Shown here piece by piece: positions 58,534 through 64,000 of a stretch of 64,000 nt of DNA. Position numbers and translations under genes: made by a program. The DNA is from Larus michahellis (Eukaryota > Chordata > Aves > Charadriiformes > Laridae). Where the stretch lies: contig NC_133907.1 in the NCBI RefSeq assembly GCF_964199755.1, positions 1,307,001-1,371,000 on the forward strand, given 5' to 3'. The notes under the pieces are model-generated. The model saw only the letters and a program-made list of their open reading frames with translations, ran no database searches and was not told the origin of the DNA. The first letter of the stretch is position 1. Each line of letters opens with the position of its first letter.

Positions 58534-60550
58534 CAGCACAAGTGCTCCTGTGCATGTGTCTGTGTTCGTTTTCTTCTTACTTCGATGACAAGTACATAAA
58601 ATGTCACTTCTACGAACTTTAACAATACTGGATAAACTTTAGTGGAATTCCTTAGAGAATGCAAGTTTCAACAAAGTTCAATTTCAATTGATGCCAAGAA
58701 AGATTCTTCTGCAGTCACTGAAGGCATATTTCTGCTCATCTAACTTGACACCTACAGACTCTGTCAGAATTTGGCACAACCCACACTAATGCTGAGAACT
58801 GCAGTATGGCAGAACTAGTCCCGCCGTGTTCTCCCTGTGCTCAGCAGGGATGACACAGTTTGTCCCACCCCAGGTCATCTGCTAACTATAGCAAAAACAT
58901 CTCCACTGACTATGCAGAGCATAGGCTGACTGGTTCAGATGTTATGTCCTGTATTGTCCTATATGTCATTTAGTCACGTGAAGCCCACCACAGGAGGCAA
59001 AAAACCCTTACAATTAGATAGTGCCCCTTCTTTACAGGGCTCTCATTTCTGTGCCATGAGGAAGACTAGACTTCCAGTTGCTGCACTGATTTTTCTAGGA
59101 GACAAGAGTTGCTGCCAGATTGGTAACGGTCACTTCTCTAGCCCAGGTACAGAAAATAACACAGGTGGATTGAAAGCAGGCAGCACTTTTTCCTCTCTGT
59201 AGCTGGGAACCGCACCTCAGCCTCACCTCCTCCTGCGAAACAATTTCAACTTAAATGTTTGACCTCACAGTGCTCCAATACAGAGTTAAAGCAGACAACG
59301 CAGTCAATTCTCAACACTCTCAAGTAGCACTGAGTTTTCTCAGTACTCTGCAAGAGGTGCTCGGCAGCTCACAGAATCATCATTAATGACTTTGGTTCCT
59401 TCGAAAGTCAAAGACTAATGGAACCAGGCAGCTTCTTCACTCGAAGTCCTAGCTTTGCTGAACGGGTATCACAACTAAGTAGCAACATTAGGTTGCCAGA
59501 CACATGAATTTTCTTTGGGTTTCTGCACTTCCAGAATTACTCAGTAGACTTTCTGGACTAATATATACTTGGCTGTTGGTTGCTTACAACTGTGATTTTA
59601 AAAACAACTTGTGATTTTGATGAATAAGCAGCAATCCAAGATGAGATGCCTGAACAAGTGGCCTGATTTTCATAGTATAATCCTTCTAAAAAGCAGCTCT
59701 TGTAATATATCCAGCCAGCCAGTTTTGAAAAATTATGCTCCATGTATAAAGCTAAACACTGCATGCAGTGATGAATACATATGAAAAAAAATCATTGACA
59801 ATCTTTTACTTACTAGATTTAAGCCTGTTGCCAATCTTAAACCACACTGAAACCACAGAATGGAAGTGCCAAGCAAGAGGCATGGGAAGACTGTGTGTAC
59901 GTGTTACTGTGCTCGCCCTGCTGCAGAAGGGATTCTGTTTATGGGTGCAGGTAAGTTTAAACTTACCAGTAAAATCATCATTTTGCTTTGAAATTCCCAC
60001 TTTGTGATGCAAAGGTACTACTGCAGTGTACTGGGATGCTGGGGAACAGGGAGCCAGGATTTAGGGTTCTGATGTATTATTCCAAGGCTCTGTAACCAGC
60101 TCCCTGTATTGTTTTTTTATATATATCTCATATCCATTTCCTGATTTATAAATTTACCTGTTTCAGGTAACAGTGTAAGATCATTAGCGTTCATATAGTG
60201 CTTTGAGATCTTCAACTGTAATGCAACATGAGTGCAAAATTGCTCTAGTTTCCCTTAGTAAGAGCAGGTGCCAAGGAAAGAACAACTCCTGTACCACCAC
60301 CTAGAGAAAAAGCCTACCTGTGCACCACCTGAAAAAGCTGAGAACTTCCCAAGATCTGCCTTGCACAAACTTTGGTAACAATAATTCCTGCTGCCTCCAG
60401 CAAACATTGGAGATAAGAAAAGGCAACCTTTTTTTTTAAAGGAAACAGAGGGGCTGATGGGACATTTTCATTTATGTTCTGCACCTAATAGCATTTAATT
60501 TCCAACCCAAATATTAATGGAAATATTTAACATGGTTACAGTCTTAATTT

Positions 60551-60566
60551 TATATATATATATATA
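60551..60566. repeat. (TA)8 simple repeat
   Basis: Eight TA dinucleotides followed by an A run. Simple repeat. Confidence 0.85.
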
Positions 60567-61061
60567 AAAATACAAGTACTTCCCTACAGTGTCCGCCATC
60601 CAAATCATGTATAGATGGAATAGTGCCCAGACTTGGTGAGACAATTAGAAACAAAACCAGTAAAGCCACACTGCCTATTTAGAAAATAGACAGTACAAAA
60701 TGGTAAAACAAATCAGTTAGAAATATTCTATGCAACCTAGAATATTAATAGCAACATGAAGTGTGTTGTTTTGCCCTCTGGTTGCCTGAGAGCATCCCTT
60801 GGAACCATTCTGCACCGGTACATACGCTAAAAGAAATCACACGGGCTTTCAACAGATGTAACTCAATACACATTTTGGCCCTTTTTGCTTTCCGAGAGGT
60901 TTAGAACAGTTTGTACGGGTCATTCGCTACTTCCCTGCAACACTTTGCCAGGTTTGGCAGGTTTCAAAAAGGAGACTGTTGCCATAGGAGCAGAGAGCCA
61001 GGCCAAGGCCGAGGGTGCCACCGAGACTACTGACAAGCTGCCCTGCATCCACTTTCTTCAT

Positions 61062-61985
61062 TCAGATGAAGTGGATCCAGCTCTCCTCACATTCCCTAGG
61101 CATCTTAAGGGGGTGAGTCCGGCAGGTAAGACTGTAGTTTTTGCCTCTGTTGTTATCCCAATACTCCCAGCCGTTGACTTGGTACCTTGCTGCGAACTGG
61201 ACTACAGAGCACAGCTGAAGGAGGAAAGGAGGCACAGGGAGAAAGAAAGTGAAAACATCAACCTGACCCTGCCCGTTTTTCTCAGGGATGCTACTGTGCC
61301 AACGAGCACACACTTCATGGAGGCTTTCCCAGTGGTTGAAGGTGTATCGCACAGACACCTGCTTCTCAAAAGCCACATTGCGAACCTGGATGGTGCCACT
61401 GAGCCCCAAATCTGAGCTGGTCACTCGTTCAAGACACACCTGCTGCTCCTGGAGCCGGGAGGAAAAATCCATACAGTCTGCAGGCTGCTGGAAGTCAGGG
61501 ACCAAGCACTGCATGGTAAACTCCAAGTCCGAGCTGCTGTACCAGAGGTCTGAGTTTATGGAGAGCCTGGAAAGGACATGCAAGGGGATCGATGGATCCT
61601 CCCCAGTCTGGAAGACTTTCACTTCAGTGAGCTCCAAGCCCAAAGCATCAGCAAATCTCACACGGTTCATGCGTCTCTGGCATACAGGAACTTGACACTG
61701 CGCTGCTGCCTGCTTCCTTCTTTCAGGCAATGTAGGCAAAGACCTCGCTCGGCGGCGTATGATAGGCCGTAACGCCGGATCACAGCTGGAGGAAGTGCTG
61801 CTCTGAAGCTTATTTGGCTGGGGGCCCCCCTCGGCTGGGGTTCTGCTCCAAAGAGTCATGCTGCTACATGCATGGGGTGCTGGGGGCTGCTGCTGCCCTC
61901 GCCCCGCTGCTTCTGCAGCCCGTAACATGTTCTGATAGAGATCAGAGAGGTAGCTGGGATTCCTCCGAGGACCACGTATCTCCAT
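61062..61985 (-). CDS. PPP1R3D: PPP1R3D (protein phosphatase 1 regulatory subunit 3D)
   Basis: This is a glycogen-targeting subunit that brings PP1 to glycogen particles, favouring glycogen synthase activation. The 307-residue frame in one exon carries the PP1-docking RVxF motif RVRF at 108-111. A CBM21 carbohydrate-binding domain spans about 183-290, with VRNVAFEKQVSVRYTF, the WDNN loop at 276-279 and NYSLTC. It also carries RRRARSLP at 78-84 and ends ECEESWIHFI. The length is close to human PPP1R3D (299). The MEIRGP start resembles human MSRGP, so the ATG at 61985 is the likely ancestral start. A TGA lies in frame 22 nt upstream, but a good intron acceptor separates it from the ATG, so an upstream exon may add to the N-terminus. 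The gene is antisense to, and probably nested in, FAM217B. Confidence 0.95.
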   Translation of the reverse strand: MEIRGPRRNPSYLSDLYQNMLRAAEAAGRGQQQPPAPHACSSMTLWSRTPAEGGPQPNKLQSSTSSSCDPALRPIIRRRARSLPTLPERRKQAAAQCQVPVCQRRMNRVRFADALGLELTEVKVFQTGEDPSIPLHVLSRLSINSDLWYSSSDLEFTMQCLVPDFQQPADCMDFSSRLQEQQVCLERVTSSDLGLSGTIQVRNVAFEKQVSVRYTFNHWESLHEVCARWHSSIPEKNGQGQVDVFTFFLPVPPFLLQLCSVVQFAARYQVNGWEYWDNNRGKNYSLTCRTHPLKMPRECEESWIHFI

Positions 61986-61986
61986 T

Positions 61987-62229
61987 CTTAACCGATGACA
62001 AAAAAATCAGCGTTAGCACTGCAGGCGACAATGAACACTGCCTCTCTGAAGGACGTCACTCAGGAATGGCAGCCACGGGCAGTATTTGAGGTTATTGGAC
62101 TGGACGCGTCAAGAAGCAACTGGAACAAGGCAGCCTGCCAAACTAAGGGCAGCAACCTGGATGCTCTGGCAGCAGCTGGAAGCGAAGCAGAGGCTAGTGC
62201 ATTGTATGGGGAGATGAAGGCAGTCTCAC
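61987..62229 (-). other. PPP1R3D: Predicted 243-nt PPP1R3D intron
   Basis: On the - strand a GTGAGA donor follows AGCCA at 62230. The far end has TGCTAAC (a near-ideal branch site), seven T and TTAAG at 61987-61988, followed by A and the PPP1R3D ATG. Splicing joins CA to A (Gln) and keeps the PPP1R3D frame. Confidence 0.6.
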
Positions 62230-62804
62230 TGGCTGGCAAACTCGAGGCCGCTGTGCTGGCTGGTGGACCCGTTGCTCAGGCTGGAAAGGGACTCAAGGCT
62301 GTCCCCCTGGATGCTGGAGGACCTGAAGCTCTCCCGCAGGCTGGAGAGCGACTGGAGGCTGTCGTGCGGGGTCCCGAAGGACTCCAGGCTGTCGGAGAGG
62401 TCACTGGCTGCCCGGGGGTGGCGCGCTCGGCCGCTGCAGGCGGGGAGGGGGGGCTGCAGGCTGTCCTCGCAGACGCCCACCGACCCCGCGCTGCCGCAGG
62501 AGCAGCAGCCGCAGCAGCAGGGACACTCCAGGCTGTCACACTGGATACTGGGCGACTCGCGAGGGCTGCCGGGGCAGGCCTGGAGGCTGTCGGGCTGGAG
62601 GGAGCCGGAGCCGAGGCCGGGGCTGCTGCAGAGGCTGGAGGGCGGGCGGGGGCTGTCGGGCGGGGCGGCGGCAGGCTCGGCCCTGCGGCCGGAGGGGGAG
62701 GGACCCGCCCCTGGGGACTCCACCGCCCTCATCGGCCGCACGCCCCGGTCTAGTCCGGCCCGCCGCCGCCCGGCGCAGCCGCCCCTCACGGCCCCGCGGC
62801 GCAT
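62230..62804 (-). CDS. Upstream exon with Ser-rich DSL-repeat frame, in frame with PPP1R3D
   Basis: A 192-codon frame starts at ATG 62804. It lies in the same frame as PPP1R3D and, if the 243-nt intron is removed, would give a 499-residue product. The second half repeats DSL followed by Q or E at residues 72, 90, 114, 138, 148 and 168, often as SIQxDSLE or DSLESL. It also has a Cys-rich patch (ECPCCCGCCSC). I know no such extension in mammalian PPP1R3D, so it is either a lineage-specific N-terminus, an upstream frame in the 5' UTR, or chance in GC-rich DNA. The ATG overlaps an NRF-1 site and may lie upstream of transcription. An in-frame ATG at 62732 is an alternative. Confidence 0.45.
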
Positions 62805-62808
62805 GCGC
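62799..62808. promoter_or_regulatory. NRF-1 site (palindromic GCGCATGCGC)
   Basis: A perfect palindromic NRF-1 core between the two divergent transcription units. It contains the ATG of the - strand upstream frame. A weaker relative (TGCGCAGTGC) lies at 62834-62843. Confidence 0.75.
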
Positions 62809-62839
62809 GGAACCGCCCCCCATCTGACCGGCCTGCGCA

Positions 62840-62901
62840 GTGCCCGCCTGGCGTCGCCGCTCGCGGCCTGCCCGTAGTTGCCGGTGGCGGCTGAGACCGA
62901 G
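62840..62901 (+). other. FAM217B: Probable noncoding first exon of FAM217B (5' end uncertain)
   Basis: GCTGAGACCGAG is followed by a perfect GTAAGT donor at 62902. There is no convincing coding frame. It is placed head to head with PPP1R3D. The start given is a guess within the island. Confidence 0.5.
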
Positions 62902-63790
62902 GTAAGTACGGGGGGGGGGGCGCGCGGCGGGGCGGAGGACCGGAGGGGCTGAAAACGCGCGGGGGCGGCCCGCTAGCGAAGGAGCTGCCCTCCGGTCCCG
63001 TCGTCAGGCGGGAATGGCCGGTGTGTGCCGGGACGGGCACCGGTGAGGAGCAGGGGCGGGTCAGATGTAAACAGACACGGGCGTGAGTGTGAACATAAAT
63101 ATATAAATAGCGCCGCCCCGAAGCTGACGGCGGGCGGGGAGAGGCGCTCCGGCGCGAGTCGATGCCCGTCCGCGCTCTCCCGGGACGGGAACGCGGCTCT
63201 GGGAAAGAGGAGAATGCAGCGAATTCTGCTCTGAGGGTTTTCAGTAGGAGCTCAGGAGCGCCGAGACGTGGGTTTGGGAAGAAGAAAAAAAATCAAGTAT
63301 TGGGTACCAAATTTGCACATATGAGCAGAGCGCCTTTTCTGCCAGAAGGGCAGCTCCGCGCGCCGATCCGCTGTCGGGTTAAATGAAGCGCAGAAACGCT
63401 GCTGCCGGCGGGGCCCGTGGCGCCGCGCGGCGGGGCCGGGGGCTGAGGAGCGGCTCGTGCAGGGGGACGCGCTCCCGGAGCGCCGCCGCACCCGCACGGG
63501 CCTCCCGTGCTTCGCCCGCGCGCCCTCGGGGGCGGGCCCGGCTCCCCCGGGGCTGTGCCCCGGCCCGGGGCTGTCCCCCGGCCCGCTCTGCTCCCCGCAC
63601 CGGACCGTGGCGGCTCGGCGTGGACCCGCGGTGGTGGGGCGAGGGGTTGGGGCTGGTTCCCGTTAAGCGAGCGCTGGGGGAGGGGACGGCGTTTTCCAGT
63701 ACTGTTTGGTAGCCGATTACGCCTATTTTACTGCTTTAAAAATACATCCCGTTGGGAGGAATGCACGGTGTTTGTTTACTGCATCTCTAG
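62902..63790 (+). other. FAM217B: Probable FAM217B intron (CpG-rich)
   Basis: Runs from the GTAAGT donor to the acceptor ttactgcatctctag at 63790. It begins with an 11-G run (62910-62920) and contains a TATA-like element at 63102. The open frames on both strands around 63.4-63.7 kb reflect high GC content. Confidence 0.5.
63102..63109 (+). promoter_or_regulatory. TATA-box-like element in CpG island
   Basis: TATAAATA within ATATATAAATAGCGCCGCC, an isolated A/T stretch followed at once by GC-rich sequence. It could set a + strand start near 63.13 kb. No transcript is known from the sequence itself. Confidence 0.35.
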
Positions 63791-64000
63791 GACGTGGTGA
63801 TGTTTGCGTTTGATACGCTGTGTCTTACGAACCCGAAAGACTGGAGTCGTTTGAAGATTATGTAAAAATAAAGGTGCAGATGCCCTTTAAAAAGAGTAAT
63901 AATGGGACCGGGCATTCAAGAATATCCCTTATTACTGCACAGAGAGACACAGAAAAAGGAAAGCCAAATCAATGGAAACCACAAAGGAATGGTAAAGTAA
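63791..64000 (+). CDS. FAM217B: Probable first coding exon of FAM217B (partial, runs off the window)
   Basis: After a good acceptor at 63789-63790 the exon has a short upstream frame (63800-63865). ATG at 63880 then opens a frame to the window end: MPFKKSNNGTGHSRISLITA, then QRDTEKGKPNQWKPQRNG. A GT with AAAGT follows at 63991 and could be a donor. The basic, Ser/Asn/Gln-rich N-terminus and position fit FAM217B, a poorly understood protein next to SYCP2 and PPP1R3D in mammals. Similarity to the human N-terminus is faint (SKNSSGKRQSK), so the name rests mainly on synteny. The -3 base is C, a weak start context. Confidence 0.42.

Follow-up and report, generated by a model that had tools for sequence, protein, structure and literature searches.

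The window, that is, the whole 64,000-nucleotide stretch that was analyzed (C16:1307001-1371000), contains on its minus strand the gene for PPP1R3D, a subunit that directs protein phosphatase 1 (PP1) to glycogen. According to the preliminary description, a 192-codon frame lies upstream of this gene in the same reading frame, separated from it by a 243-nt stretch with a GTGAGA donor, a TGCTAAC site, and an AAG acceptor. Re-reading of the sequence found all these elements in place: the upstream frame occupies positions 62804 to 62229 of the minus strand and is closed by the TGA codon at 62228-62226, and removal of the 243 nucleotides reproduces the described in-frame Gln-Met fusion to the 307-residue PPP1R3D frame. 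The six DSL(Q/E) motifs reported for the upstream frame (hereafter the DSL frame) were also recovered, all of them in that single frame. The features discussed below are as follows.

62899 to 62907, plus strand: splice donor GAG/GTAAGT, first intron base 62902, 11.57 bits
62733 to 62804, minus strand: possible extra N-terminal 24 codons from ATG 62804, without codon-choice signal and less likely
62230 to 62732, minus strand: proposed coding part of PPP1R3D exon 1, starting at ATG 62732, judged by GC1/2/3 and the synonymous score
62292 to 62591, minus strand: six DSL(Q/E) motifs, in one frame
62493 to 62540, minus strand: in-frame cysteine-rich cluster CDSLECPCCCGCCSCG, overlapping a GCA/TGC run at 62496-62520
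61987 to 62229, minus strand: proposed 243-nt phase-2 intron, donor CCA/GTGAGA, acceptor TTAAG/A
62012 to 62018, minus strand: TGCTAAC, a branch-point-like site with the branch A 26 nt before the acceptor
61062 to 61985, minus strand: PPP1R3D core of 307 aa, with CBM_21 at residues 178-286 and the family motifs

Residues 178 to 286 of the core match the CBM_21 domain (Pfam accession number PF03370) with an E value of 1e-32; this domain is found at 7 places in the genome, PPP1R3D included. The core also contains the motifs RARSLP at residue 79, RVRF at residue 108 (before the CBM_21 domain), and WDNN at residue 276. The combination of CBM_21 with an RVxF motif places the protein in the PPP1R3 family, and RARSLP identifies it as the PPP1R3D orthologue: this 14-3-3 motif is described as absent from R5/PTG and GL (PMC4482762).

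Arranged head to head with PPP1R3D is a FAM217 gene (PF15344, E value of 1.9e-78), encoded on the plus strand at C16:1373187, equivalent to position 66187 in window numbering; this is the sole PF15344 match listed for the genome. Based on the head-to-head synteny of the human genes, we take this neighbor to be FAM217B. The strong plus-strand donor at 62902 probably ends FAM217B exon 1, in which case positions 62800-62900 would constitute a promoter shared by the two genes. In the CpG island upstream, positions 63546-63585 are occupied by 2.2 copies of an 18-nt unit with 95% matching.

The length of the DSL frame was dropped as evidence for coding, because shuffled sequences reach the same openness by chance: of 2000 dinucleotide shuffles of the 744 nucleotides from 62972 to 62229, 29% had one or more of the six frames open from end to end, and for 2000 such shuffles of the 504-nt region 62732-62229 the proportion was 69%. 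The base composition at the three codon positions (GC1/2/3) is.65/.69/.92 over the 192 codons and.58/.62/.92 in 62603-62229; the respective values for the proposed intron are.52/.51/.55, and triplet periodicity is absent there. Masking the DSL(Q/E) motifs in 62230-62732 gives.59/.75/.92, and GC3 likewise stays at.92 when repeat-like residues are masked. Within-codon shuffling was applied 20000 times to each of four subsets, with the repeat-like residues masked in two of them, and the GC3 excess was never matched.

For comparison, a control set of 29 out of 52 sequences from the same genome (303,206 bases) was assembled from the window, L002, L003, and L006 to L031 and was deliberately enriched with the six further CBM_21 genes; the overlapping L001, L004, and L005 and the short receptor pieces L032 to L051 were left out. 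The set contains 201 open frames with a length of 140 codons or more. In order of GC3 excess, measured over the best 140 codons, the DSL frame (.31) is fifth, preceded by two CBM_21 genes, a haem peroxidase, and its own opposite-strand mirror. Fairly high values are also seen in frames without a Pfam match: the opposite-strand counterpart of a reverse-transcriptase frame in L022 has.25, and two other frames have.21 and.18.

Synonymous codon choice, with 14 receptor exons with GC3 of at least.75 as the reference, places the DSL frame first among the 128 open frames with a GC content of at least.58 (.225 per codon in the best 140 codons). Ranks 2 to 6 are held by frames whose coding capacity is supported by Pfam, namely, three CBM_21 genes, a Kunitz/WAP exon, and an opioid precursor. 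Among the frames with no identified coding domain, only some of which were compared with Pfam, the best score is.107, versus.225 for the DSL frame. The next frame after the identified coding ones is a GC-rich open frame of 208 codons on the minus strand of L002 (L002:8991-9614; synonymous score of.107). In the full codon score, which includes amino acid make-up, the DSL frame is only 5th of the 128; this score is negative in most 30-codon windows, and the last three are the sole ones in which it is clearly positive. In leave-one-out controls, the true frame beat the other five in all 18 coding pieces with GC3 of at least.75 (from a total of 26), and the DSL frame similarly outscores its other five frames, the mirror included. 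When the DSL(Q/E) motifs were masked, the synonymous score still exceeded those of all 3000 shuffles. Strict masking, which leaves 93 codons, lowers that score from.192 (168 codons) to.068, a value reached by 4 of 3000 shuffles, so a good part of the coding signal resides in the repeats. Overall, the DSL frame is very probably protein-coding, and GC-rich chance, listed as an alternative in the preliminary description, is unlikely, since both the periodicity and the codon choice survive masking of the motifs. According to a change-point model fitted over 62732-61987, the periodicity ends at 62240; the 2-log-unit interval, 62217-62249, covers the donor at 62229 as well as the stop codon at 62228-62226, so the fit does not separate an exon from a separate open reading frame (ORF).

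An N-terminal extension of PPP1R3D is plausible, but synonymous codon choice makes a length of 168 residues, counted from ATG 62732, likelier than the 192 proposed originally. When the frame is scanned in 30-codon windows, the synonymous score stays between -.20 and +.05 in windows starting above 62732 (-0.16 to -0.06 in those starting at 62822-62762); the windows from 62732 onward all have positive scores apart from those at 62492 (-.03) and 62432 (-.01). Because the windows at 62822-62762 lack a synonymous signal, ATG 62732, which is the sole ATG of the three minus-strand frames within 62732-62229, is favored over ATG 62804 and is the likely translation start. The GC1/2/3 values of.75/.77/.86 in 62972-62805 indicate that GC3 is somewhat raised farther upstream as well, which counts against certainty on this point. 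ATG 62804 is surrounded by the palindrome GCGCATGCGC (62799-62808), which we take to be NRF1-like and which lies between the divergent PPP1R3D and FAM217B genes; this arrangement suggests that this ATG may sit in the promoter and not in the mRNA.

The proposed exon 1 comprises 168 codons from ATG 62732, with exon 2 supplying the final base of the last one. Splice sites in 61900-63000 were scored with general vertebrate frequencies. The donor CCA/GTGAGA (62229), with A at position -1, has 5.33 bits, a score that occurs 2.9 times per kb per strand, but it is nonetheless the top donor in this region. The acceptor at 61986 has 5.79 bits and is the 12th best in the region, such scores occurring 5.6 times per kb. 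Four acceptors inside the intron, at 62175, 62134, 62018, and 62099, outscore it. Joined to exon 1, each of these four runs into a stop codon within 10 to 22 residues, and all were rejected; among the five acceptors tried, 61986 is the only one that gives an open frame from exon 1 into the core. The proposed CA/A-ATG junction is in phase 2, would join the proteins as FASQ-MEIR, and has the same position as the intron of PPP1R3C.

The PPP1R3C gene in L026 (best match, the PPP1R3C chain of 7qm2, with an E value of 2.3e-95) provides a family reference for intron position. Its predicted join, MHCSR/MIQVLD, spans a 1588-nt phase-2 intron, with exon 1 at 616-629 of the reverse complement of L026, a donor of 11.34 bits, and exon 2 starting with A-ATG at 2218. 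When exon 1 is included, the RVVF motif falls at residue 85; the corresponding human residue is R84 (PMC4482762), and this agreement supports the MHCSR exon. In PPP1R3B (L027), an acceptor picked by eye lies 31 nt before the ATG and one base before whole codons, in the same phase as in PPP1R3C. With its weak but phase-compatible sites and the matching intron in a paralogue, splicing of exon 1 onto PPP1R3D is plausible on sequence grounds. The complete reading, in which the DSL frame is coding and is spliced to PPP1R3D as its first exon, can be given a probability of about two in three.

Alternatively, the PPP1R3D mRNA might stay unspliced, and its 5' leader would then carry the same frame as a translated upstream ORF of its own, with TGA 62228-62226 as the stop codon; this ORF would yield a separate small protein or damp PPP1R3D translation. 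Such an ORF would have the same coding signature and, because the stop codon lies inside the donor, the same end point as the exon. It is also consistent with the weak splice sites and with the sequence around Met 61985, which in unspliced RNA offers a strong start context, with A at -3 and G at +4; splicing turns the -3 base into C. However, the splice sites are in frame, are compatible in phase, and come with a good branch point, and PPP1R3C has a matching phase-2 intron. In addition, under the scanning model, an unspliced upstream ORF of 168 codons is expected to block most PPP1R3D translation, as reinitiation after that many codons is normally very poor. All this makes a separate ORF unlikely.

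The six DSL(Q/E) motifs have their first bases at 62591, 62537, 62465, 62393, 62363, and 62303, whereas the maximum was 1 motif in both 5000 residue shuffles and 2000 dinucleotide shuffles. The suggestion that these repeats reflect selection on the protein rather than on the DNA is not supported in the form given. The 8 bases GACAGCCT are identical in all six motifs, and a comparison of the 20-residue copy at 62393-62334 with that at 62333-62274 shows 6, 5, and 8 base changes at codon positions 1, 2, and 3, respectively. These amount to 3 synonymous and 10 nonsynonymous codon differences, so there is no synonymous excess in this one pair of duplicated units that was compared. Copying at the DNA level is therefore likely, the repeats offer no case for protein selection, and short-repeat copying explains the number of DSL(Q/E) motifs without it. 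The D3 repeat family has a spacing of 60 nt. These observations, i.e., the 8 identical bases per motif, the 60-nt spacing of D3, and the copies with no synonymous excess, along with the frequent openness of shuffled sequences and the weakening of the signal under strict masking, would also fit a GC-rich, repeat-driven promoter or 5' untranslated region (UTR), in which a short repeat copied in multiples of three generated open frames and repeated motifs with no translation. That explanation is very doubtful, given that the periodicity and codon choice outlast motif masking, that frames with no identified coding domain (Pfam having been applied to some of them only) do not exceed.107 as against.225 here, and that the signal ends at the donor.

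It is most improbable that the plus-strand frame 62218-62877 is the true coding frame and the DSL frame its mirror: although it is open for 219 codons with a GC3 excess of.31 in its best 140 codons, it has a full codon score of -.16 (versus.04 per codon for the minus-strand frame), a synonymous score of.033 (versus.225), no Pfam match, and a signal end that coincides with the minus-strand donor, and the codon scores explain it as the mirror of the DSL frame.

Searches of the 1.4-Gb genome of the same species with exon 1 retrieved only the exon itself, with an E value of 0.001. Six other places, matched by a 125-aa piece with E values of 0.55 to 8.53, were taken as chance. No Pfam family matched exon 1 at E values up to 1 (of matches weaker than about 0.1, few pass the HMMER filters), Rfam searches at gathering scores found nothing in 60500-64000, and no homologues of the PPP1R3D core were confirmed in viral_contigs and genome_contigs, searched without a vertebrate collection. 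Among the literature matches listed for PPP1R3D, chicken, FAM217B, PPP1R3 introns, and GC-rich bird genes (titles and abstract starts), none dealt with an N-terminal extension of PPP1R3D; gene models in the databases, which were beyond the scope of this search, may include the exon. An expression variant of PPP1R3D in chicken heart is mentioned in PMC12807649.

If the DSL frame is indeed the first exon, transcription would start in the CpG island common to PPP1R3D and the head-to-head FAM217B, and translation would likely begin at ATG 62732. Removal of the 243-nt intron, a phase-2 intron that would stem from the PPP1R3 family and is seen in PPP1R3C too, would then place, through the CA/A-ATG join, ∼168 Ser/Pro-rich residues (41 Ser and 20 Pro) in front of the 307-residue glycogen-targeting protein, for a total of ∼475 aa. 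The strong context of Met 61985 in unspliced RNA suggests that a short, mammal-like form starting from this residue may be made as well. The N-terminal tail is probably disordered; the AlphaFold model of the 168 residues alone, built without an alignment, has a mean pLDDT of 43.1 and no fold, a result that fits disorder but is uninformative. A disordered docking tail would be the cautious reading. More speculatively, the tail could tune the location of the PP1-glycogen complex by acting as a multivalent segment for docking or phosphorylation, and membrane anchoring through the cysteine cluster, which overlaps the GCA/TGC run, is also a speculative option. It is rather improbable that birds, or some of them, have a long PPP1R3D isoform in which a disordered DSL(Q/E) docking tail with a CPCCCGCCSCG segment that could be lipid-modified moves PP1-glycogen control to membranes or clusters it; the ∼76% GC content of the island around the exon would explain why such an isoform had been overlooked. 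Earlier vertebrate references are reported to have missed 5' UTRs and first exons in a large share of genes, tracking GC content (PMC8081667). The proposed exon would be another first exon concealed by a GC-rich promoter and would tie the N terminus of PPP1R3D to an intron common with PPP1R3C. A PPP1R3D model that starts at Met 61985 would then miss 168 of the 475 residues, about a third, leaving work on glycogen control in this lineage with a truncated protein.

The paralogue nearest in look to PPP1R3D, as judged by eye, is encoded in L030 and presumably is PPP1R3G-like; it ends with WIHFI, contains the sequence RRRAKSLPTP, and, in searches of its own genome, differs from PPP1R3D in having no match to the DSL frame. 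Human PPP1R3D is a single-exon gene for a protein of ∼299 residues, relative to which the 168-residue exon proposed here is extra. Human PPP1R3D (R6) also has the CBM_21 domain, and its 14-3-3, PP1-binding (RVRF), and WDNN sites, given as S74, R102, and W267 in PMC4482762, are placed close to those of the core. The human protein has been studied and is glycogenic with RVRF at residue 102, and hence without such a tail (PMC4482762). PPP1R3C (R5/PTG) resembles the proposed gene structure in having a phase-2 intron right before A-ATG, so that its exon 1, too, adds N-terminal codons. However, exon 1 of PPP1R3C codes for just 5 residues and has a strong donor, whereas that of PPP1R3D would contribute 168 codons from a weak one.
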